From Flavobacterium daemonense (GTDB lineage: Bacteria > Bacteroidota > Bacteroidia > Flavobacteriales > Flavobacteriaceae): 64,000 bases of DNA. The notes below the pieces were generated by a model that did not search any database, had not been told where the DNA came from, and saw only the letters and a list, made by a program, of their open reading frames with translations. The position numbers and the translations under genes were made by a program. The DNA lies in NCBI RefSeq assembly GCF_007341385.1, contig NZ_VJYD01000015.1, positions 1 to 64,000 on the forward strand, given 5' to 3'. Position 1 is the first letter of the stretch. Each line of letters starts with the position of its first letter. Below, piece after piece: positions 31,113 through 42,657 of this stretch.

Positions 31113-31180
31113 GTGCTTAAATTAATCACAAAGTATTTTCAAAATTTAAAACTTTGACAATGAAGTAATCGCGAAGTATT

Positions 31181-31490
31181 GTCATTTCGACCGGAGGGAG
31201 ACTCGAGCGATAGCGACTGGCGAAGCAAATCTTCGCGAGAAACTCTACAAAGATTGGCGACAATCTATTGAGAACTGTTTTTTTGTCATTTCGACCGGAG
31301 GGAGAAATCTTAACGAGAAACTCTACAAAGATTGGCGACAATTTATTGAGAACTGTTTTTTTGTCATTTCGACCGGAGGGAGAAATCACACTAGAATTTC
31401 CGCAAAGAAAATCGCCAATCTTTGTAGAGTTTCGAGTGTGATTTGCTTCGCCAGTCGCTATCGCTCGAGTCTCCCTCCGGTCGAAATGAC
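31181..31490. repeat. composite palindromic repeat element, family B
   Basis: The outer 50 bp arms (31181-31230 and 31441-31490) are exact reverse complements, starting GTCATTTCGACCGGAGGGAG. Inside, that 20-mer recurs at 31285 and 31363, each followed by a nearly identical stretch of about 80-100 bp (ACTCTACAAAGATTGGCGAC), and an inverted copy of the inner stretch lies at 31411-31440. A shorter relative is at 63613-63737. It is a noncoding intergenic element; the open frame across it on the minus strand is a by-product of the repeat. Confidence 0.92.
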
Positions 31491-31531
31491 AAAAAGAAGT
31501 CAACTCATTAGTTTTTAGTCTTAATGAAAAA

Positions 31532-33937: not shown

Positions 33938-34957
33938 TTAATTTTTTTCGAAATAAAGATAATTGGTATTGCTATTTACATCACGCAATCTTATTAAGGA
34001 ATTGTTGAATTCAAACAATTTCCAGTTATCGTTCAATTTTTTTAGTAAATCTGAATTGAAGTTCAGCTGAACTTCCCTAACGCCGTTTTGTAATTTCGTA
34101 TCCCATTGGCCAGTTTCAGAAGAAGCGCCTTTAGAAGCAATTACCGTTTTATCACTTTTAAATGTAAACGAATAACCGGCATAAGAAGCCGTTTTATCTG
34201 AGTCAGCGTAATAATAAGGTATTTGCCAAGAACCGTTTGTAATTGTATTTGTAAAATCAAGCGTTACAATATTATTTTCGGGACAATAATCAATGGCATA
34301 TTTTATGGCATTTTCAAAATCTAAATTGCTGGTAATCGATTTTGTCTGATTATTATAATCCACGATAGAAATTGGATATTGCAGCGAAATATATTGACTG
34401 CCGGTCAAATCTTTTATAAAATTAAAAAATGCCTTGTCACTCGTGATTGATGTAGAACTTGCAGCTTGACTGGCGCTGTTGTAAATATTTATAGTAATAG
34501 GATAATTGATATTTAATCCGTTGATTTTAGATAAAAGATCAGGATACTGATTCCAATAATTGATTAAAGAATTAAAATCGGATTCATTTGGGATTACTTT
34601 TTCAATATAATTATAGTAAACCATTGTTACCGGAAAATTTATTTTCACAACATCGTCGTCGCTATTGCTGGCATTGATATTATCGATTACTTTTTGATAA
34701 TCGGCTGGCGAATTAACCGCAATTTGCGTATTGTTGACCGTAACCGTATATGGAGGTTTTATAGTACAATAAGTAGATCCGTCGATTACATTGTCTTCGA
34801 CTGTTTGAACCATTGCAACCCTTTGAAGATAAGAGGTTAGCGGAGAAGCATTTGTAACTGTTCCTTGTGTAGTATTGACTTGCTCATCCATTTCATTTTG
34901 ACAAGACAACAAGAAAAACAAAACTGCAATTGATAAATATTTTTTTAAAGGGAACAT
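33938..34957 (-). CDS. repeat lipoprotein of unknown function
   Basis: 339 residues with a lipobox (FFLLSCQNE). The body holds about four degenerate repeats of 45-50 residues with the pattern NFPVTMVYYN, NYPITINIYN, QYPISIVDYN followed by an (I/S)-x-S-x-x-DF segment (ESDFNSLINY, SDKAFFNFIKD, NLDFENAIKY). The C-terminal 90 residues (YSFTFKSDKTVIASKGASS, then VQLNFNSDLLKKLNDNWKL) resemble a small beta domain often found ending bacteroidetal lipoproteins. It is divergent from the ECF sigma gene across a 195-bp region, so it could belong to that regulon. Function not known. Confidence 0.6.
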   Translation of the reverse strand: MFPLKKYLSIAVLFFLLSCQNEMDEQVNTTQGTVTNASPLTSYLQRVAMVQTVEDNVIDGSTYCTIKPPYTVTVNNTQIAVNSPADYQKVIDNINASNSDDDVVKINFPVTMVYYNYIEKVIPNESDFNSLINYWNQYPDLLSKINGLNINYPITINIYNSASQAASSTSITSDKAFFNFIKDLTGSQYISLQYPISIVDYNNQTKSITSNLDFENAIKYAIDYCPENNIVTLDFTNTITNGSWQIPYYYADSDKTASYAGYSFTFKSDKTVIASKGASSETGQWDTKLQNGVREVQLNFNSDLLKKLNDNWKLFEFNNSLIRLRDVNSNTNYLYFEKN

Positions 34958-35099
34958 ATTTATATTTTTACAAAGATAATAAAATTTAAGAAGCTGTTTT
35001 TTAATAAATTGTCATCCATTATTTCGGTTTTATTTTTTCAATCTCAAATGATTGCGTGAAATAGACCTTTCTGTTTTTATAAAACAATCAGCTTTGATT

Positions 35100-35108
35100 T
35101 TACCCTAC
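35100..35108 (-). promoter_or_regulatory. TTACCCTAC word upstream of ECF sigma gene
   Basis: This is the reverse complement of GTAGGGTAA, which occurs after the sigma gene (35671) and upstream of the redox cluster (39221). It lies 44 bp before the sigma start, facing the divergent lipoprotein gene. An ECF-controlled element is inferred from recurrence only. Confidence 0.35.
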
Positions 35109-35152
35109 TTAAAATAAAAACAAATACATTTACATTGTAAATTGAAAATCGA

Positions 35153-35668
35153 ATGCCAGCCAAAAACGAATCAAATACTTGCGACGAAATCATTTTTTCG
35201 TCTTTCTTCAAAAGTCAGATAAAAGCACTTCGGAATTTTCTTTTTTACAAATATGGCAATATGGAGCAAGCCGAAGATTTAGCCCAGGAAGCTTTTGTAA
35301 AACTTTGGAAAAACTGCGCGTCAGTTCCATTAGAAAAAGCAAAATCATTTATTTATACCGTTGCAAATAACAGCAGCCTCAATGAAATTGCGCATCAAAA
35401 AGTGGTTTTGAGATATGAGAAAAACTTCACGGGCCTTGATAAAACAAATGAAAGTCCTGAATATATCTTAGAAGAAAAACAATTTCAGGCGAAACTTTTG
35501 AAAGCCATTGAAAATTTGAACGAAAAACAGCGCATTGCATTCTTGATGCATCGAATTGACGGAAAAAAATACAGCGAAATAGCATTAGATTTAAATATTA
35601 GCGTAAAGGCAGTTGAAAAACGCATTCATTTGGCTTTATTGAGTTTACGCAAAGAAATTGATTTGTAA
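35153..35668 (+). CDS. ECF RNA polymerase sigma factor (FecI-like)
   Basis: 171 residues. Region 2 is seen in YKYGNMEQAEDLAQEAFVKLWKN segments (about residues 35-60) and region 4 in NEKQRIAFLMHRIDGKKYSEIA followed by ISVKAVEKRIHLALLSLRK. It is followed by a FecR anti-sigma gene and a TonB-dependent transducer gene, the standard cell-surface signalling trio. It should direct transcription of the trio and perhaps of nearby targets when the receptor binds its ligand. Gap to fecR is 50 bp and contains a GTAGGGTAA word. Confidence 0.93.
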   Translation: MPAKNESNTCDEIIFSSFFKSQIKALRNFLFYKYGNMEQAEDLAQEAFVKLWKNCASVPLEKAKSFIYTVANNSSLNEIAHQKVVLRYEKNFTGLDKTNESPEYILEEKQFQAKLLKAIENLNEKQRIAFLMHRIDGKKYSEIALDLNISVKAVEKRIHLALLSLRKEIDL

Positions 35669-35670
35669 AA

Positions 35671-35679
35671 GTAGGGTAA
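35671..35679 (+). promoter_or_regulatory. GTAGGGTAA word between sigma and anti-sigma genes
   Basis: Identical to the word at 39221-39229 and the complement of that at 35100-35108. It starts 2 bp after the sigma stop codon and 48 bp before the fecR start. It may be part of an ECF promoter or an RNA element. Confidence 0.35.
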
Positions 35680-35718
35680 ACCCTGTTCCAGTTGTTTTAA
35701 TAAAATAATAGCAGTACA

Positions 35719-36618
35719 ATGAAAAAAAATCACTTATTAGCCAAATGGCTCAGCAACGATTTATCTGAAGATGAATTAGCTGCATTTGAGGCAAGCCCCG
35801 ATTTTGAAAAATACCAGAAAATAAAAGAGTATACTGCTCATTTAGAAGTAGATGATTTTGAAGAAAATAATATGCTGGCGAACATTCTTAAACAGGAAAA
35901 AGAAGCGCCAAAAGTGATTCCGTTATACAAAAAATGGATGTTTCGAGCTGCAGCAATATTTGTTTTGGCTTTGGGAATTACCTTTGCCATGAAATTTTTC
36001 ATGCCACAAACACAAACGGCAAATTTTGGCGAAAAAACCTCTTTTTCATTACCTGATAATTCTGAAGTTGTACTGAATTCAGGTTCTGAGATAAATTATA
36101 AAAAATGGAATTGGGATCACAACAGACATTTGGAATTAAAAGGAGAAGCTTACTTTAGAGTTGCCAAAGGTCGAAAATTTGAGGTTCAGACCAATCTCGG
36201 GAAAGTGACGGTTCTAGGTACGCAATTTAATGTCAAAGCCAGAAAAAATAGATTTGATGTCGTTTGTTACGAAGGACGTGTGAAAGTAAATTATGATAAT
36301 TTCCAAATTTTATTGACGCACGGACAAAGTGTAACTTTCGAAAACGGAAAACAAGCCAGAACGACTACAAATTCGGTTAAACCAGAATGGATTGACAATC
36401 AGATATGTTTTTCTAAAGAAAATATCAGAAGTATTCTAGATGAAGTTGAAAGGCAATATAATATCAAAATCGAATTAAATACAAAAGATACAACTTCCTT
36501 GTTTACAGGAAAATTACCCGCTAATGACTTAAATATTGCTTTGCAGATTATTAGTACGACCTATCATTTGGAGGCTAAAAAAGTTTCCGGAAATAAAGTA
36601 ATTTTTGACGAAAAATAA
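35719..36618 (+). CDS. FecR-family anti-sigma factor
   Basis: 299 residues. The cytoplasmic N-terminus (LLAKWLSNDLSEDELAAFEAS) binds the sigma factor. One TM helix at about 75-93 (MFRAAAIFVLALGITFAMKFF) leads to the periplasmic FecR domain (FGEKTSFSLPDNSEVVLNSGS, LELKGEAYFRVAKGRKFEV, TVLGTQFNVKAR) and a C-terminal STN-like/DUF4974 domain (ENIRSILDEVERQYNIKIEL). It transduces the receptor signal to the sigma factor. Its stop codon TAA directly abuts the ATG of the receptor gene, indicating co-translation. Confidence 0.95.
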   Translation: MKKNHLLAKWLSNDLSEDELAAFEASPDFEKYQKIKEYTAHLEVDDFEENNMLANILKQEKEAPKVIPLYKKWMFRAAAIFVLALGITFAMKFFMPQTQTANFGEKTSFSLPDNSEVVLNSGSEINYKKWNWDHNRHLELKGEAYFRVAKGRKFEVQTNLGKVTVLGTQFNVKARKNRFDVVCYEGRVKVNYDNFQILLTHGQSVTFENGKQARTTTNSVKPEWIDNQICFSKENIRSILDEVERQYNIKIELNTKDTTSLFTGKLPANDLNIALQIISTTYHLEAKKVSGNKVIFDEK

Positions 36619-39150
36619 ATGTTGCTCCCCAAACAATTTCATTTTTTGTTTTGTGTATTTTTCTTCGTTCTCGGCATTTCTGCTCAGGACAAGGAAGAGG
36701 CTGTGCCATTGAAAAACATCTTAATTGAAATTGAAAAGCAGCATCAAGTAAGCTTTAATTACATTGAAGAAAATGTTGCCGGAATTAAAATAATACCTCC
36801 AAAACAATCAATTTCACTTGAACAAAAACTGGAATATCTTTCTAAAAAAACGAATTTGTCATTTGAAAATATCGGAAACAAATTCAATATTTATAAAAAA
36901 GATAAGGAATCACCAATAGTTTGCGGCTACGTTTTTTCGAGCGCTGATAATAATCCAATTAATGGAGCAAATATCAGTTTGAACAGCAAACAGCAAATTG
37001 CAACAAATTCGAATGGTTACTTTGAATTTAAAAAAGAAGAGGCAAATGCGTTTGTGATTACGCATATCGGATTCATAAGCAAGAAAATCACAGTTAGCAA
37101 TTCGGACTCAAAAAATTGTCTCAAAATCTTGTTGGAACCTGAAATTACGGAACTAGCAGAAATTAAAACCAATGCGATTTTAGCTTCGGGAATTTCAAAA
37201 AACAAAGACGGATCATTTGAAATTAAGCCTAAGAAATTCGGAATTCTGCCAGGCCTTATCGAACCAGATGCGTTGCAAGCCATGCAGCAAATTCCTGGAG
37301 TTAATAGTATTGACGAAAGTGTTTCGAGCATCAACGTGCGCGGCGGTACGCATGATCAGAATTTATTTTTGTGGAACGGAATTCGAATGTACCAAACGGG
37401 ACATTTTTTTGGTTTAATATCGGTTTTCAATCCGAATTTGGCACATACTATTTCTATTTATAAAAACGGAAGTTCTGCGTTTTATGGCGAAAGTGTTTCA
37501 AGCGTAGTTTCGATTTCTTCAACTCCAGAAACGGCTGAGAAAAATACATTCAGCGCCGGAATAAACATGATTAATGCCGATGTTTATGGGAAATACAATC
37601 TTTCGAAAAAAAGCTATATCGAAATTTCTGCACGAAAATCAATTACTGATTTCGTAGAAACGCCAACGTACAAAGAATATTTCGACAAAATTTTCCAGAA
37701 CACAACAATCACCGATTTTTCGCAAAGCCAAAACGTAGATTATCGAAGCGATAAAAAATTCGGTTTTTATGATGCGACGCTAAAATTTGGTCAAAAAATA
37801 GGGGAGAAAGATGTTCTGGTTTTAGATTTAATTACGATAAAAGATAATTTGGAAGTCTTTCAAAGTGCCGCTGGAAACAACATCTATAGGTCAGAAAACA
37901 ATGTTTTGCGCCAACAAAATTATGGCGGAAATTTATCGTGGAAACGAAATTGGAACAGTTTTAATACTACGAAAATTAATGTTTACACATCGGCTTATGA
38001 ACTTTTGGCAAACCAGAAAACAACTAATGATAATCAAATCGTCATTCAGGAAAATACGGTCAATAATAACGGAATCAATTTAGAGAACGATCATATTATA
38101 AGCCCAAAATTTAGTTTTAATGATGGTTATCAGTTCAATGAAATTGGTATTACGAATCTGGAAGACGTAACAAATCCTGATTTTTATCGCAAAGTAAAAG
38201 ATGTACTTAGAACGCACGCTTTAATTTTGGAAGGAAAATACAATGACACGATTTCTCGAGTATATTTCAAGGCCGGAACACGAGTGAATTACATTGAAAA
38301 ATTCAAGAAATTTATTGTCGAACCCCGAATTCAGTTGAGTTACGGCTTTAATAAAAATCTGAATTTAGAATTGCTTGGCGAATTAAAAAGCCAAAACTCA
38401 CAACAAATTATTGATTTGCAGAAAGATTATTTCGGGATCGAAAAAAGACGTTGGATTGTTGCCAATAATACCACAATTCCGATTCAGAAGAGCAAGCAAT
38501 TATCTTTGAATTTGTTCTATAGAAAGAATGACTGGCTGTTGGATGTAGAGAATTTTTATAAAAAAGTAACCGGAATTACGACTTCCAGCCAAGGTTTTCA
38601 GAACCAATTAGAGTTTGTCAAAACAACAGGCGATTATGAAATTTGGGGAACAGAGATTTTGGTTCAAAAAAGAATGAATCATTTTTTGACATGGTTGAGC
38701 TATACCTACAACCATAATAATTATCATTTTCCAAATTACGAATACCCAATTTTTCCCAACAACTTTGAGTTGATGCATACGGTTTCGTGGGCGGGAATGT
38801 TTGAAAAAAATAATTTCAAAATTGCCTTGGGAACAAAATTGTCTTCTGGACGACCTAATACATCACCCAATACTTCTCAAATTGATGCTTCAAACCCTGT
38901 TTTGGTGTATAACAGACCAAACAGCACCAACTTGGATATTTTTTCGCAAGTCAATCTTTCTTCCACTTATAAATGGGAAACTTCAAAAGGAATTCAATAT
39001 AAATTAGGAATTTCGATCCTGAATATTTTAAACAGGAGAAATGAAATTGGCGAATATTATAGAATAAGTTCGTTGACGAACTCTATTGAAGAAGTTGAAA
39101 CTTCTGCCCTGCAACGCACTCCAAACTTGAGTTTTAGAGTTTCATTTTAA
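36619..39150 (+). CDS. TonB-dependent receptor/transducer
   Basis: 843 residues. A signal peptide is followed by an STN signalling domain (about 25-95: ILIEIEKQHQVSFNYIEE, LEYLSKKTNLSFE), a carboxypeptidase-regulatory-like domain (about 100-175: VCGYVFSSADNNPINGANIS), the plug (about 200-300: LQAMQQIPGVNSIDE, SINVRGGTHDQNLFLWNG) and a beta-barrel ending with a C-terminal Phe (LSFRVSF). The STN domain shows it signals to the FecR protein encoded immediately upstream. No SusD gene follows, so it is not a glycan SusC/D pair. The ligand is unknown; siderophores, metals or small organics are possible. Confidence 0.95.
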   Translation: MLLPKQFHFLFCVFFFVLGISAQDKEEAVPLKNILIEIEKQHQVSFNYIEENVAGIKIIPPKQSISLEQKLEYLSKKTNLSFENIGNKFNIYKKDKESPIVCGYVFSSADNNPINGANISLNSKQQIATNSNGYFEFKKEEANAFVITHIGFISKKITVSNSDSKNCLKILLEPEITELAEIKTNAILASGISKNKDGSFEIKPKKFGILPGLIEPDALQAMQQIPGVNSIDESVSSINVRGGTHDQNLFLWNGIRMYQTGHFFGLISVFNPNLAHTISIYKNGSSAFYGESVSSVVSISSTPETAEKNTFSAGINMINADVYGKYNLSKKSYIEISARKSITDFVETPTYKEYFDKIFQNTTITDFSQSQNVDYRSDKKFGFYDATLKFGQKIGEKDVLVLDLITIKDNLEVFQSAAGNNIYRSENNVLRQQNYGGNLSWKRNWNSFNTTKINVYTSAYELLANQKTTNDNQIVIQENTVNNNGINLENDHIISPKFSFNDGYQFNEIGITNLEDVTNPDFYRKVKDVLRTHALILEGKYNDTISRVYFKAGTRVNYIEKFKKFIVEPRIQLSYGFNKNLNLELLGELKSQNSQQIIDLQKDYFGIEKRRWIVANNTTIPIQKSKQLSLNLFYRKNDWLLDVENFYKKVTGITTSSQGFQNQLEFVKTTGDYEIWGTEILVQKRMNHFLTWLSYTYNHNNYHFPNYEYPIFPNNFELMHTVSWAGMFEKNNFKIALGTKLSSGRPNTSPNTSQIDASNPVLVYNRPNSTNLDIFSQVNLSSTYKWETSKGIQYKLGISILNILNRRNEIGEYYRISSLTNSIEEVETSALQRTPNLSFRVSF

Positions 39151-39160
39151 TTCTTTCCGC

Positions 39161-39200
39161 ACAGGATTCCCATAAATTCTGTCTTTCATTTATTTTTTTT
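39161..39200 (+). terminator. possible terminator after receptor gene
   Basis: ACAGGATT (39161-39168) pairs with AATTCTGT (39175-39182) with one G-U and a 6-nt loop. It is followed by a T-rich tract to about 39200. Confidence 0.4.
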
Positions 39201-39220
39201 TCAAAAAATAAAATTCTTAG

Positions 39221-39229
39221 GTAGGGTAA
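39221..39229 (+). promoter_or_regulatory. GTAGGGTAA word upstream of redox-like cluster
   Basis: Third occurrence of this word, 212 bp before the lipoprotein gene at 39441. Its placement after the receptor terminator and before the next cluster suggests the downstream genes may share the ECF control. Confidence 0.35.
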
Positions 39230-39440
39230 TCTGCAATAAGGCTGTTTTACTATTGAATCCTATCAAAAGAATAAAAATGATACGCTTAAAAAACTCGTAT
39301 GACAGTTCATAACAATAGCTGAAAAGTTATTGAACGAAATGCTCATAAAAAAATCAAGTTGACTTCTTGATTGCAAAATGCTTTACAATTTCTGTACAGC
39401 AATCTCCATCTTTTTAAATTATTAATCTAATTAAAAAACT

Positions 39441-40349
39441 ATGAAATTAAAACAATTTACATTCGCTTTAGCTGCGTTTTCGGCAGCGTTATTTTTCTCT
39501 GGTTGCAGTAGTGATAATGGTGACAGCACAACGACACCACCTCCAGTTCAAGAAAATAAAATAGAAGTTTCTCTTTCTACAAGCGCGACATTGGGTTCTT
39601 ATCTTTCTGATAAATCTGGGCGATCTTTGTATTTTTTCGCAACCGATTCAAAAGGACAATCATCTTGTACTGGTGGCTGTGAAGCGTTATGGCCTGTTTT
39701 TTTTGTAGATAATTTGACTGCAGATAAATTAGGCGCAGGATTGACATTGTCTGATTTTGCATCAATCACTACTCCGTCAGGTAAAAAACAATTGACTTAT
39801 AAAGGTTGGCCGTTGTACTACTATGCGCCAGTATCTGCAGGTGACGGATATGGCGGTGGAGGTGTCAACACACCAGAAGCTGCGGGTCAAACAGCGGGCG
39901 ACGGAATTGACGGCACTTGGTTTATTGCAAAACCAGATTATTCTATTATGATTGTAAGAAGCCAGCTTGTGGGTCATGACGGCAAAAACTACAAATCAGA
40001 TTATACCGTTGGCGATGGTGTAACTACTTATTTTACTGATGGCAAAGGACTGACTTTGTACACATTTAAAAATGATAATTTCAAGAAAAACAATTTTACA
40101 TTGGCCGATTTTTCTAACAATGGCGTATGGCCAATTTATGAAACAGATAAAATTGTGGTTCCCTCAATTCTTGACAAATCGAAATTTAGTTCGATTACTG
40201 TATTTGGAAAAGTGCAGCTGACTTATAATGGCTGGCCGTTGTATTATTTCGGTCAAGATGCTGGTGTTCGCGGTGCTAATAAAGGAATCAGTTTCCCGAG
40301 TCCTGGAGTTTGGCCGGTACCTGTAAAAGATATTCCGCTAGCAATTTAA
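39441..40349 (+). CDS. lipoprotein with secreted repeats (Lipoprotein_15/COG4315 type)
   Basis: 302 residues, lipobox FFSGCSSDN. The body carries the repeat of PF03640-type secreted lipoproteins: YLSDKSGRSLYFFATDSKG with CTGGCEALWPVFF, then KKQLTYKGWPLYYYAP, then YFTDGKGLTLYTFKNDN with GVWPIYE, then KVQLTYNGWPLYYFGQD. Two Cys in SCTGGCEALWP match the conserved pair of the family. Function of the family is not established, though it recurs beside envelope redox proteins. First gene of a five-gene plus-strand cluster ending with YceI; gap of 55 bp to the next gene. Confidence 0.82.
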   Translation: MKLKQFTFALAAFSAALFFSGCSSDNGDSTTTPPPVQENKIEVSLSTSATLGSYLSDKSGRSLYFFATDSKGQSSCTGGCEALWPVFFVDNLTADKLGAGLTLSDFASITTPSGKKQLTYKGWPLYYYAPVSAGDGYGGGGVNTPEAAGQTAGDGIDGTWFIAKPDYSIMIVRSQLVGHDGKNYKSDYTVGDGVTTYFTDGKGLTLYTFKNDNFKKNNFTLADFSNNGVWPIYETDKIVVPSILDKSKFSSITVFGKVQLTYNGWPLYYFGQDAGVRGANKGISFPSPGVWPVPVKDIPLAI

Positions 40350-40404
40350 GCTGAATTTTAAGTATAAAAATTGATAAATCCTGATTTTAAAAAAGCACAG
40401 AAAA

Positions 40405-40800
40405 ATGAGTAAAAAAATCAAACTAATTATTTTGATAGTGGCTGTATTTGCCTTAGCGGGAGTCATCTCCTATAATTATATAATGCATGGCGGCGAACGG
40501 GATTTGGCAGCAGAAAAAACAGATTTCTCGGTTACTTCTGCATTTATAACATCTGAATTTCTGGGAGATATTGACGCTGCAAACAAAAAATATCTTGAAA
40601 ATGCCGTCGCCATAAAAGGAAAAATTACTGCCCTGAACGGGAAAGAAGTAATTCTGGACGAAGCCATTATCTGCAGTTTTAAGAATCAGGATTTATCAAT
40701 AAAAAAAGGACAAACAGTTACTGTAAAAGGCCGAATTGTGGGTTATGATGATTTGATGGGAGAGTTGAAATTAGACCAATGTTTTATAATCAAAAATTAA
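40405..40800 (+). CDS. membrane-anchored OB-fold (tRNA_anti-like) protein
   Basis: 131 residues. An N-terminal TM anchor (LIILIVAVFALAGVISYNYI, about 7-26) precedes an OB-fold of the tRNA_anti-like type (VAIKGKITALNGKEVILD, VTVKGRIVGYDDLMGELKLD). Despite the name, members of this family are extracytoplasmic and of unknown role. The gene ends 4 bp before the DUF5777 barrel gene, so these are surely one transcript. Confidence 0.72.
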   Translation: MSKKIKLIILIVAVFALAGVISYNYIMHGGERDLAAEKTDFSVTSAFITSEFLGDIDAANKKYLENAVAIKGKITALNGKEVILDEAIICSFKNQDLSIKKGQTVTVKGRIVGYDDLMGELKLDQCFIIKN

Positions 40801-40804
40801 TTAA

Positions 40805-41668
40805 ATGAACGTAAAATTATTTTTATCCTCACTATTTTTTCTTTTGGCTTTGAGTCAGGCTTCGGCGCAGGATGATTTACTGAAGCAATTGGATTCGATT
40901 AAACCAAAAGAAAAACAGGCAGAAACATTAGGTTTCAAAGGACTCCAGATTTGCAACATGCAATCGACAAAAGTAACTGCCAAAGGCGAATGGTATGTTT
41001 TGATTTCGCATCGTTTTGGTGATTTGACACAAGGTTTTAATAATTTTTTCGGATTGGATGATGCTTACACCAAATTAGGCGCCATTTACGGAGCAACAGA
41101 TTGGCTGTCAATTGGAGCATCAAGACAAACCAATAATAAAATTTATGAACTGACGGCAAAATACAGATTGAAAAATCAGGAAGCTGATGGTTTTCCGGTT
41201 TCGATTGTGGGATATAATACAATGGATATCAATACTAATTTGAGTACAGACCAATATCCATATTTAGAATTCAATAATCGTTTGGCTTATACAACACAAT
41301 TGCTAATTTCAAGAAAGTTTTCGGATAAGATTACGCTTGAATTTGCGCCTATTTACATTCATAAAAATTTGTATGATGAAACAACTGAAAGGAAAGATCA
41401 ATTTGTTGTAGGACTTGGAGGAAGATACAAATTGACAAAAAGGATGAGTATGAACCTTGAATACGCACCTCGAATTGATGCACCCGAAAATGATGTGTAC
41501 CATAATTTGCTTTCGCTAGGATTGGATATTGATACCGGCGGCCATATTTTCCAGATGGTATTCTCAAATTGTCAAACGATGAACGATGTTTATGTATTCT
41601 CTAATGCCACCGGAAAATGGAATGGAGGAAGCCTTTATTTCGGATTTAATTTATATAGGGTTTTTTAA
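40805..41668 (+). CDS. DUF5777-family beta-barrel protein
   Basis: 287 residues. A signal peptide (LFLSSLFFLLALSQASAQ) is followed by an outer-membrane-like barrel with the family landmarks VTAKGEWYVLISHRFGDL, NNFFGLDDAYTKLGAIYGATDWLSIG and a final Phe (LYFGFNLYRVF). Family function is unknown; it commonly travels with cytochrome c and YceI genes in Bacteroidota. Gap to the next gene is 17 bp. Confidence 0.75.
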   Translation: MNVKLFLSSLFFLLALSQASAQDDLLKQLDSIKPKEKQAETLGFKGLQICNMQSTKVTAKGEWYVLISHRFGDLTQGFNNFFGLDDAYTKLGAIYGATDWLSIGASRQTNNKIYELTAKYRLKNQEADGFPVSIVGYNTMDINTNLSTDQYPYLEFNNRLAYTTQLLISRKFSDKITLEFAPIYIHKNLYDETTERKDQFVVGLGGRYKLTKRMSMNLEYAPRIDAPENDVYHNLLSLGLDIDTGGHIFQMVFSNCQTMNDVYVFSNATGKWNGGSLYFGFNLYRVF

Positions 41669-41685
41669 AATTAATACCATATTCG

Positions 41686-42030
41686 ATGAAAAAAATAAAA
41701 ATATTTTTAATCGCAGTGTTCAGTGTATTTATAGTTTCTTGTGAATCAAATACCTATAGCGAAATAAGTGCGCCAGCTGTAAATCCAACTTATGTGGCAA
41801 ATGTAGAACCCATTATAAGACATAATTGTTTGAGTTGCCATTTTGGAACCAATCAGTCCCCAAATTTAGAAACCTACGATGGCGTTAAAAATGCCTGCCT
41901 TAATACCAATTTAATTTGCCGAATTGAGTCGGAATCCTGCGGTGAAAGAATGCCTTTGGGCGGACGTCTCGCGCAAAGCGATATTGATTTGATAAAGCTT
42001 TGGACAACGGAAGGATTTGTAAAAGAATAA
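41686..42030 (+). CDS. c-type heme lipoprotein
   Basis: 114 residues with a lipobox (FIVSCES). One heme-c attachment motif is present: CLSCH in EPIIRHNCLSCHFG. A candidate axial Met is in GERMPLGGRL. Two further Cys (NACLNTNLIC) may form a disulfide. The size and layout match small cytochrome-c-like domains of the planctomycete type found in envelope electron transfer. It is 17 bp after the DUF5777 gene and 10 bp before the YceI gene, so it is inside a tight operon. Confidence 0.8.
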   Translation: MKKIKIFLIAVFSVFIVSCESNTYSEISAPAVNPTYVANVEPIIRHNCLSCHFGTNQSPNLETYDGVKNACLNTNLICRIESESCGERMPLGGRLAQSDIDLIKLWTTEGFVKE

Positions 42031-42040
42031 ACCAAAAATC

Positions 42041-42583
42041 ATGAAAAAGATAATAGTTTTACTAGTATTTATTTTTTTGGGAAATACCATTTTTGCCCAA
42101 AAAATGATGACCCGAACCGGACAAATAAAATTTGAAGCTTCTGTACCTTCTTTTGATCCTGTTGCGGCTGTAAATAATTCGGTTTCGGCAATTCTTGATG
42201 AATCGAATGGCGAATTTGCGGTTTTGGCTTTAGTGAAAGCATTCAAATTTAAAATTCCTTTGATGGAAGAACATTTCAATGAAAATTATATGGAATCTTC
42301 GGTTTATCCAAAGGCAACTTTCAAGGGGAAAATTTTAAATTTTGATGCTTCGAAAACAAGTGCTTCTAAAAAATACGATTTAGAAGGAGATTTGACAATT
42401 CACGGTGTCACCAAAAAAATTAAAACCAAAATAGATGTAGCACCTAAGGATGGGAAATTATATGTTTCAGGCGATTTTGTGGTTAAAAATCAGGATTTTA
42501 ATATCAAAATACCAAGTCTTGTAAAAAGCAAAGTCTCTGAAGATGTTGCAATTAGTTTTGATTTGGTTCTTGATGAAAAATAA
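42041..42583 (+). CDS. YceI-family lipocalin-like protein
   Basis: 180 residues with a signal peptide (IIVLLVFIFLGNTIFAQ). It has the YceI pattern: GQIKFEASVPSFDPVAAV, HFNENYMESSVYPKATFKG, and the DLTIHGVTKKIKT strand pair. YceI proteins bind isoprenoid lipids such as quinones in an extended barrel. As last gene of the cluster with a heme lipoprotein, a role in handling a lipophilic electron carrier is a reasonable inference. A strong terminator follows. Confidence 0.9.
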   Translation: MKKIIVLLVFIFLGNTIFAQKMMTRTGQIKFEASVPSFDPVAAVNNSVSAILDESNGEFAVLALVKAFKFKIPLMEEHFNENYMESSVYPKATFKGKILNFDASKTSASKKYDLEGDLTIHGVTKKIKTKIDVAPKDGKLYVSGDFVVKNQDFNIKIPSLVKSKVSEDVAISFDLVLDEK

Positions 42584-42612: not shown

Positions 42613-42657
42613 AAAAAGAAAGCTTTTCTAATACAGTAGAAAAGCTTTCTTTTTTTT
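42613..42657 (+). terminator. intrinsic terminator closing the redox-like cluster
   Basis: An 18-bp stem (42613-42630 with 42637-42654) is followed by a T-run. It lies 30 bp after the yceI-type stop. Confidence 0.9.

Follow-up and report, generated by a model that had tools for sequence, protein, structure and literature searches.

Gene content of the locus

The window, a stretch of 64,000 nucleotides from Flavobacterium daemonense, holds five open reading frames at 39441-42583, all on the + strand and separated by intergenic gaps of 55, 4, 17 and 10 bp (Table 1). The sequence-only reading had described a compact five-gene cluster with gaps of 4-55 bp closed by one terminator, and the reading frames, the gaps and a strong hairpin were all found. 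The hairpin folds with -21.3 kcal/mol (z -5.6), a value equalled by 0 of 200 shuffles, and is absent from the list of a simple terminator scan. Upstream, genes for an ECF sigma factor, a FecR anti-sigma factor and a TonB-dependent receptor (TBDT) form one cluster, which is conserved in 15 loci. The sigma factor was recognised with a profile built up from one relative, L106, and this relative scores above the Pfam sigma-70 cut-offs. The divergent lipoprotein belongs to no Pfam or PHROG family.

Table 1 Predicted features of the locus, with positions in the window
Feature	Position	Strand	Details	Basis
Divergent lipoprotein	33938..34957	-	339 aa; predicted ECF regulon member	homologues and upstream site
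ECF promoter-like site	35079..35108	-	GTAGGGTAA-N13-TGTTTTAT, 0 mismatches, facing divergent lipoprotein gene	
ECF sigma factor	35153..35668	+		profile match, 186 bits
ECF promoter-like site	35671..35700	+	1 mismatch (last base A), between sigma gene and fecR	
FecR anti-sigma factor	35719..36618	+		PF04773, 68.5 bits; PF16344, 40.6 bits
TonB-dependent receptor	36619..39150	+	CarboxypepD_reg-like and Plug domains	Pfam
ECF promoter-like site	39221..39250	+	GTAGGGTAATCTGCAATAAGGCTGTTTTAC, 0 mismatches, facing five-gene unit	
Secreted-repeat lipoprotein (PF03640)	39441..40349	+	lipobox FSGC, C76-x3-C80	Pfam
Membrane-anchored OB-fold protein (PF12869, tRNA_anti-like)	40405..40800	+		Pfam; anchor read by eye
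DUF5777 beta-barrel (PF19089)	40805..41668	+	287 aa	Pfam
Monoheme c-type cytochrome lipoprotein	41686..42030	+	CLSCH and distal MP	motif reading, family alignment
YceI lipocalin-like protein	42041..42583	+	signal peptide	Pfam PF04264; signal peptide by eye
Intrinsic terminator hairpin	42613..42654	+	18-bp stem, then T tract	folding

Family assignments of the unit are mostly clear. The DUF5777 protein matches positions 1-247 of the 247-position PF19089 profile with 288.8 bits (cut-off 23.1), and the genome was found to hold a single copy. The secreted-repeat lipoprotein matches PF03640 (Lipoprotein_15) in 3 stretches with 94.3 bits (cut-off 24.4) and is the only gene of that family found in the genome, the OB-fold protein matches PF12869 with 30.4 bits (cut-off 23.5), and the YceI protein, encoded by one of 6 YceI genes in the genome, matches PF04264 with 61.9 bits (cut-off 23.7). 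Against PDB sequences, the YceI protein finds three YceI entries, with a weak match to 5ixh (E 3.6e-4), which is BcnA according to excerpts of PMC9113575, while the secreted-repeat lipoprotein has one match (E 0.91) and no credible relative there. AlphaFold2 models of the DUF5777 protein (8 sequences) and of the secreted-repeat lipoprotein (7 sequences) have a mean pLDDT of 42 and 33, respectively, too low for a fold search or a structural claim.

The cytochrome, whose N-terminus places C19 in a lipobox-like context, matches nothing in Pfam above the cut-off (best PccH, 14.8 bits). Compared alone with PDB sequences it finds cytochrome c6 (E 0.1), and a profile of its family gives weak matches to single-heme and other c-type cytochromes. 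Within the family the motif is constant: C-x2-4-CH occurs in 143 of 143 members collected from the loci and the window with no prior filtering. The heme motif is kept through three spacings, CX2CH (116), CX4CH (42) and CX3CH (3). W106 is kept in 100% and M89 in 97% of the 119 shorter members that were aligned. Two heme-copper oxidase genes and a gene for cytochrome c assembly are also present in the genome. From the conserved ligands and the assembly gene we infer that the CLSCH motif is heme-loaded. In excerpts of PMC5080379, the consensus of surface-exported lipoproteins (LES) of F. johnsoniae is given as SDDFE, a polar and then acidic residues at +2 to +6; CSSDNGD of the secreted-repeat lipoprotein and CESNTYSE of the cytochrome match it only in part. 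As there is no clear match to the surface-export signal, the claim of a surface-exposed cytochrome was dropped.

Conserved partners of DUF5777 across Bacteroidota

Of 395 Bacteroidota genomes sampled, 153 hold DUF5777. For the neighbourhood counts we used 104 of 140 DUF5777 genes, namely those flanked on each side by more than 3 kb, leaving out L008, a copy of the window; they lie in 102 stretches, of which L056 and L092 hold two each. Within 5 kb of these genes, a small redox carrier is found 101 times, YceI 95 times and both 92 times, counts that are not independent because the genes are best-scoring matches and some share one genome. YceI is missing from 9 of the 104 neighbourhoods and a recognised carrier from 3, so YceI cannot be called the most constant of the DUF5777 partners. 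The genes occur in 46 different orders and remain tightly packed, with a median of 9 bp over the 348 neighbour gaps around all 140 genes. Homologues of the cytochrome, YceI and OB-fold proteins number 143, 132 and 59 in the 1178 kb lying within 5 kb of DUF5777, versus 0, 1 and 0 in the remaining 472 kb of the loci and the window. The sequence-only reading had proposed a functional unit and named co-occurrence elsewhere as its own refutation test; this test was run, and the claim came through it. At the level of gene content, the comparison shows a unit that is conserved across Bacteroidota and consists of the predicted DUF5777 barrel, YceI and a small exported carrier of electrons.

The carrier slot is usually filled by a monoheme cytochrome c, and by a Rieske protein or a cupredoxin in other lineages. 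Specifically, 91 of the 104 DUF5777 genes have a cytochrome, 8 a Rieske protein (6 of them without cytochrome) and 4 a cupredoxin without cytochrome. One representative of each replacement carrier passes Pfam (Rieske, 38.3 bits; Copper-bind, 43.6 bits). The cupredoxin ligand set H...C-x2-H...M is kept in 7/7 proteins, and the Rieske motif C-x-H...C-x2-H in 8/9, the second spacing being longer in L087. On the tree of the 104 DUF5777 proteins, the cytochrome label needs 6 changes and the Rieske label 5, of which 4 are forced by well-supported branches in each case, and the proteins with the cupredoxin label form one clade. Because these unrelated carriers share one slot, an electron-transfer role, which had been suggested for the cluster, now appears likely; this replacement is the best evidence for it.

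The other two genes of the unit are less constant. The OB-fold gene lies near 43 of the 104 DUF5777 genes, and more often near those with a cytochrome (42/91) than near the others (1/13; Fisher p 0.013), an association with the heme carrier that, uncorrected for kinship, is no more than a hint; among 59 homologues of this protein, C90 is kept in 81% and C126 in 63%. The secreted-repeat lipoprotein, previously taken as a member of the cluster, is indeed present here, but lies near only 12 of the 104 genes, in 11 distinct stretches, since L056 holds two DUF5777 genes and its lipoprotein is therefore counted twice. It is best described as an accessory member of the predicted regulon. Additionally, cupredoxins occur as T9SS-sorted neighbours of DUF5777 genes. 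DOMON neighbours were collected with a profile seeded with the DOMON part alone, as a whole DOMON-T9SS protein pulled in cupredoxins (L128, L134); their representative scores 30.8 bits, slightly below the Pfam cut-off of 32.7. The tail of a lipoprotein in L056 is cupredoxin-like by its ligand motif, and Pfam reports no cupredoxin there.

As for the barrel itself, H69 and H247 are each found in 139 of 140 proteins, both being missing from the same one, and are candidate catalytic or cofactor residues. The C-x2-4-CH heme motif occurs in none of the DUF5777 reading frames that were read. A literature search yielded, in the partial texts it covered, no mention of DUF5777 and nothing on its gene set.

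A common promoter motif in Flavobacterium

The motif GTAGGGTAA-N13-TGTTTTAY, allowing 0-1 mismatch, has 3 sites in the 4.75 Mb genome, all in this cluster, and the reversed control has 0. With 2 mismatches the genome has 5 sites and the reversed control has 4, and weight is therefore given to the closer matches alone. A looser pattern gives 2 further matches in the window and 6 more across 1.32 Mb from the other loci. All three sites recur in 15/15 TBDT-bearing loci (at most 2 mismatches, spacer of 12-16 bases), and a homologue of the divergent lipoprotein is found in the same 15/15 loci and in 7/7 further ones. In L146 the lipoprotein gene has been relocated and keeps its own promoter-like site; in L048 and L147-L150 the lipoprotein gene and the unit of OB-fold, DUF5777, cytochrome and YceI genes each have one. 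These motif matches show that the unit and the neighbouring ECF/FecR/TonB-receptor system have a predicted promoter motif in common in Flavobacterium. The adjacent ECF system, earlier named as a possible regulator, thus probably controls the five-gene unit, the common motif being conserved in relatives. The five genes stand as the cluster that had been delimited, and the predicted regulon is wider, spanning 33938-42583. The receptor lies near 15 of the 104 DUF5777 genes, all from Flavobacterium, and the system is missing from the Flavobacterium loci L040, L043, L047, L049 and L050; among the loci compared, this probable ECF-FecR-receptor control of DUF5777 units was seen only in this genus.

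A proposed envelope redox module

Because the five-gene unit and the sigma system have a promoter motif in common and the core of the unit recurs across the phylum, the locus probably encodes an unstudied envelope electron-transfer system. Our preferred reading, to which we give a probability of about one half, is an inducible redox module that moves electrons between the periplasm and the outer membrane or cell surface. On this reading, the TonB-dependent receptor would detect a ligand or state and FecR would pass the signal on, freeing the sigma factor to transcribe fecR and the receptor gene together with the five-gene unit and the gene of the divergent lipoprotein. Electrons would pass between the small lipoprotein carrier, here the monoheme cytochrome c, and the DUF5777 barrel, in which the histidine pair may make up a site for a cofactor, a metal or a substrate, and YceI would give or take an isoprenoid such as menaquinone. 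The outer partners would be accessory proteins, some of them surface-sorted; in this locus the secreted-repeat lipoprotein would take that part, and in other loci T9SS-sorted cupredoxins or DOMON-like proteins would. The net result would be one-electron traffic between the periplasm and the outer membrane or surface. YceI proteins bind other lipids as well, and quinone handling by the unit is a mere possibility suggested by analogy with YceI proteins elsewhere.

A possible but less favoured explanation is envelope antioxidant defence or quinone maintenance, in which a YceI-borne isoprenoid quinone would quench lipid peroxyl radicals, the small carrier would re-reduce it and DUF5777 would act as a channel for hydrophobic ligands. 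Ankyrin-repeat proteins, which are linked to oxidative stress, lie near 16 of the 140 DUF5777 genes. The model would be BcnA-LcoA of Burkholderia cenocepacia, where, in excerpts of PMC9113575, a YceI-family lipocalin genetically linked to a cytochrome b561 gene protects against lipid peroxidation; both systems link a YceI-family protein genetically to a heme protein, with an envelope redox role that is a proposed one here. In contrast, cytochrome b561 was not found among the window proteins scanned with Pfam, and the DUF5777 unit has a barrel and a monoheme c, Rieske or cupredoxin carrier. Moreover, YceI is missing from the DUF5777 neighbourhoods more often than the carrier is, and the probable control by a TonB receptor and its sigma factor in Flavobacterium would be an odd trigger for a response to peroxidation.

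ECF-FecR-TBDT control typically goes with iron-carrier uptake, and its probable presence here, the cupredoxins, which occur as T9SS-sorted neighbours as well as in the carrier slot, and the near-invariant H69 and H247, which could bind metal, would suit a role in metal handling. The barrel and carrier would then oxidise or import Fe(II) or Cu(I), and the receptor would sense a metal complex. The precedent is Cyc2, in which a porin and a one-heme cytochrome form a single chain (excerpts of PMC8406198); it resembles the unit as proposed here in that a single c-type heme works with an outer-membrane barrel. However, the DUF5777 unit consists of separate genes with a smaller barrel protein and an exchangeable carrier. 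The Cyc2 fused chain, with cytochrome and porin, has at least 365 aa, while the DUF5777 protein of the window has 287 aa and its family lacks the heme motif in the reading frames read. The Cyc2 motif AXPXFAR[Q/K][T/Y] upstream of CXXCH (same excerpts) was not seen by eye in the window cytochrome, which reads YVANVEPIIRHNCLSCH. A 2Fe-2S carrier is also ill-suited to copper handling, and we regard this explanation as improbable. That the genes are neighbours through common regulation only, with no joint redox path, would accord with the 46 gene orders and the frequent absence of the OB-fold and secreted-repeat genes, but is very improbable, as phylum-wide adjacency despite rearrangement, together with carrier replacement, is hard to explain without a common function.

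The envelope redox module can also be set against other known designs. Cbp2D of Cellvibrio japonicus combines, in excerpts of PMC8981238, a YceI/X158 domain with two single-heme c domains for electron transfer; unlike the DUF5777 unit, it is a single secreted protein of several domains, among them a carbohydrate-binding module, a role in the service of LPMOs has been proposed for it, and the excerpts mention no barrel. MtrAB-type conduits share the idea of a barrel plus an electron carrier, but use a multiheme chain and a 26-strand porin (excerpts of PMC8406198), whereas here one heme is predicted beside a small barrel protein. A bolder and rather doubtful extension is that the unit represents a new class of outer-membrane electron conduit spread through Bacteroidota, which in Flavobacterium would be turned on by an ECF sigma factor of its own. 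In it, a small barrel with the histidine pair H69/H247 as its site would take up interchangeable one-electron carriers as plug-ins (cytochrome c, Rieske or cupredoxin), YceI would link it to the isoprenoid pool, and accessory surface redox proteins would connect it to outside partners.

To our knowledge, outer-membrane electron transfer has been little studied in Bacteroidota. DUF5777, a family absent from the literature that we found, gains a likely redox role and a constant set of partners, and Flavobacterium gains a defined predicted regulon with an exact promoter motif; all of this is testable in laboratory strains of the genus. If the barrel truly conducts electrons, its design would be far simpler than that of multiheme conduits.

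Conservation of the five-gene unit

The five nearest DUF5777 relatives found are encoded by named Flavobacterium, at 86–91% identity. The sequence-only reading had described a tight cluster of five ORFs closed by a single terminator, and both features hold: the ORFs are real, their intergenic gaps are 55, 4, 17, and 10 bp, and the unit is closed by a strong hairpin that a T tract follows. Pfam names four of the five proteins; the remaining one is a lipoprotein that carries CLSCH and a distal MP. The genes for an ECF sigma factor, FecR, and a TonB-dependent receptor lie 5' of the unit on the same strand. Elsewhere in the window, an ORF-like stretch of repeated SPSGRNDKKTVLN...LSPIFVEFL units probably represents a repeat element and not a gene.

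Features of the predicted control region and surroundings of the unit
Feature	Position	Strand	Remark
Repeat stretch	31126-31503	-	
Divergent lipoprotein, 339 aa	33938-34957	-	without Pfam or PHROG match
Promoter-like site	35079-35108	-	precedes divergent 339-aa lipoprotein gene
Promoter-like site	35671-35700	+	precedes fecR-TonB-dependent receptor genes
Promoter-like site	39221-39250	+	precedes five-gene unit
Terminator	42613-42654		

DUF5777 is present in 181/296 genomes of the order and 153/395 of the phylum, two samples that partly overlap. We read 140 DUF5777 genes (the window's counted, its copy L008 excluded), which are the best-scoring places, several per genome in some cases, so that the counts are not independent. 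Neighbours were sought within 5 kb of the 104 genes with more than 3 kb on both sides. The sequence comparison reveals a conserved unit, bearing out the core of the grouping first proposed: a cytochrome gene lies near 91/104 and a YceI gene near 95/104, with the membrane-anchored OB-fold (OB) gene near 43/104 and the secreted-repeat lipoprotein near 12/104 (11 distinct stretches). Beyond 5 kb (472 kb, same models), we found no cytochrome, one YceI, and no OB gene. The 104 neighbourhoods display 46 different gene orders, and the spacing of same-strand neighbours (348 gaps, all 140 genes) has a median of 9 bp, with 89% below 60 bp. Since the window's own genome (G000, 4.75 Mb) contains six YceI genes and one DUF5777 gene, chance adjacency of the two would be rare (~1% by simple arithmetic). 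Additionally, CHRD-domain protein genes, assigned from one representative (L004) scanned with Pfam, lie 3' of the module in some relatives (L001-L005, L035, L146).

The DUF5777 barrel and the carrier slot

Residues Phe71, Gly280, and Phe281 are invariant in all 140 DUF5777 proteins; His69 and His247 are each present in 139/140, Gln125, Arg285, Lys119, Arg107, and others in at least 94%, and His186 in 122/140. The sole protein lacking His69 also lacks His247; this divergent second copy in L056 is also without a carrier by the neighbour count. His69 and His247 form a putative paired site within the barrel, which the AlphaFold2 model of DUF5777 is too poor to locate.

In other lineages, the cytochrome is replaced in its position by a different small redox protein, whose export signal was read by eye. 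Rieske proteins lie near 8/104 DUF5777 genes, six of them without a cytochrome, and a cupredoxin without a cytochrome lies near 4/104. One representative of each type passed the Pfam cut-off, and full ligand motifs are found in 8/9 Rieske proteins and 7/7 cupredoxins of all loci. When the 104 barrels are placed on a maximum-likelihood tree, six changes of the cytochrome label are required (at least four forced by well-supported branches) and five of the Rieske label (four forced), and the cupredoxins form a single clade. No recognised carrier was found within 5 kb of three of the 104 genes (L095, L129, and one of the two L056 copies). A role of the unit in moving electrons is supported most strongly by this exchange of unrelated electron carriers in one slot.

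The heme motif is retained in 143/143 cytochrome-family members found, with spacings (161 motifs) of CX2CH in 116, CX4CH in 42, and CX3CH in 3; the CX4CH cytochromes (L011, L012, L028, L033, L068, L070, L093, and others) may need special maturation. Three same-family relatives (L021, L027, L035) contain a cupredoxin gene between OB and DUF5777 with the cytochrome alongside, and the two cupredoxins scanned (L021, L035) possess a T9SS sorting domain above the Pfam cut-off. DOMON-like T9SS proteins lie near 10/104 DUF5777 genes. The secreted-repeat lipoprotein of L056 contains cupredoxin ligands in its C-terminal stretch, in which Pfam reported no cupredoxin.

Promoter motif and regulators

A block conserved about 70 bases 3' of the receptor gene, GTAGGGTAA-N13-TGTTTTAY, is shared by 15/15 receptor-bearing loci including the window. 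With at most one mismatch it occurs at three sites in the entire genome, against none for the reversed control pattern; with two mismatches, there are five sites versus four for the control. All three sites are present in 15/15 loci with this receptor when two mismatches and a 12-16 base spacer are allowed, a looser pattern that yields two further hits in the window and six across the other loci (1.32 Mb), compared with 0-1 in each of 10 window shuffles. Among seven extra receptor-bearing loci (L145-L151), chosen mostly for additional sites, six have three sites at ≤1 mismatch, and L151 lacks the site before the divergent gene. The 339-aa divergent lipoprotein is kept beside the sigma factor in the 15/15 loci and in 7/7 further ones. 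In L146, the secreted-repeat lipoprotein gene is on the opposite strand with its own site, and L048 and L147-L150 have separate sites for this gene and the OB-DUF5777-cytochrome-YceI unit. Position and conservation suggest that the neighbouring sigma factor reads the motif.

Across the genus (≤1 mismatch), 70/150 genomes have at least one site, versus 16 for the reversed control, and at least 20 have three sites in one cluster among the matches listed. Many other hits read TGTCTTAY and resemble sites for different sigma factors; divergent GTAGGGTAA-N13-TGTCTTAY pairs about 700 bp apart (e.g. G646:C9:173173 and 173881; G658:C15:26787 and 27515) probably belong to a related but different ECF system. 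In one genome only (G715), a perfect copy outside the cluster (L144, ~6027, -) precedes a gene named by eye as GTP cyclohydrolase II-like (riboflavin pathway).

The receptor system (TonB receptor near 15/104 DUF5777 genes) is confined to Flavobacterium in this count, and was not found at the Flavobacterium loci L040, L043, L047, L049, and L050. An ECF sigma gene lies within 5 kb of 23/104, a limit outside which the window's own falls. In other lineages, the 5 kb around DUF5777 contain either another type of ECF neighbour or a regulator of the Crp/Fnr type, or lack both. An ECF sigma gene and a gene for a ~430-aa protein adjoin the module in L106, L119, L128, L134, L137, and others. The ~430-aa protein, found near 15/104, has an N-terminus that looks anti-sigma-like by eye and matches an OMP barrel weakly, below the cut-off; this sensor of other lineages differs from the FecR-receptor pair. 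A Crp/Fnr-type gene is directly 5' of DUF5777 in 14/140 (L020, L025, L029, L031, L034, L037, L057-L063, L065), many of these loci with ankyrin-repeat and DOMON-T9SS genes 3'.

Proposed mechanism and known systems

The unit is most likely an inducible envelope redox module under receptor/FecR/sigma control. The receptor, FecR, and the sigma factor would switch it on. The comparisons show the unit itself, the exchange of carriers, and the common motif. From these we infer an electron path, a quinone role, and a crossing of the outer membrane: electrons would pass either way between the small lipoprotein carrier and the barrel, YceI would handle an isoprenoid, and surface proteins would serve as outer partners.

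Cbp2D (PMC8981238) joins YceI with monoheme cytochromes, a precedent for the pairing in the unit, and the BcnA-LcoA antioxidant system (PMC9113575) pairs YceI with a cytochrome, there b561. Identity with Cyc2 (PMC8406198) was rejected: cytochrome and barrel are two distinct proteins in the unit, and the cytochrome of the window lacks the Cyc2 motif. The non-subscription literature searched contained no mention of DUF5777 and no functional account of the gene set or the secreted-repeat family. The component families are already known; within that literature, their combination into one assembly, whose carrier can be exchanged and which has an ECF regulon of its own, seems not to have been described.
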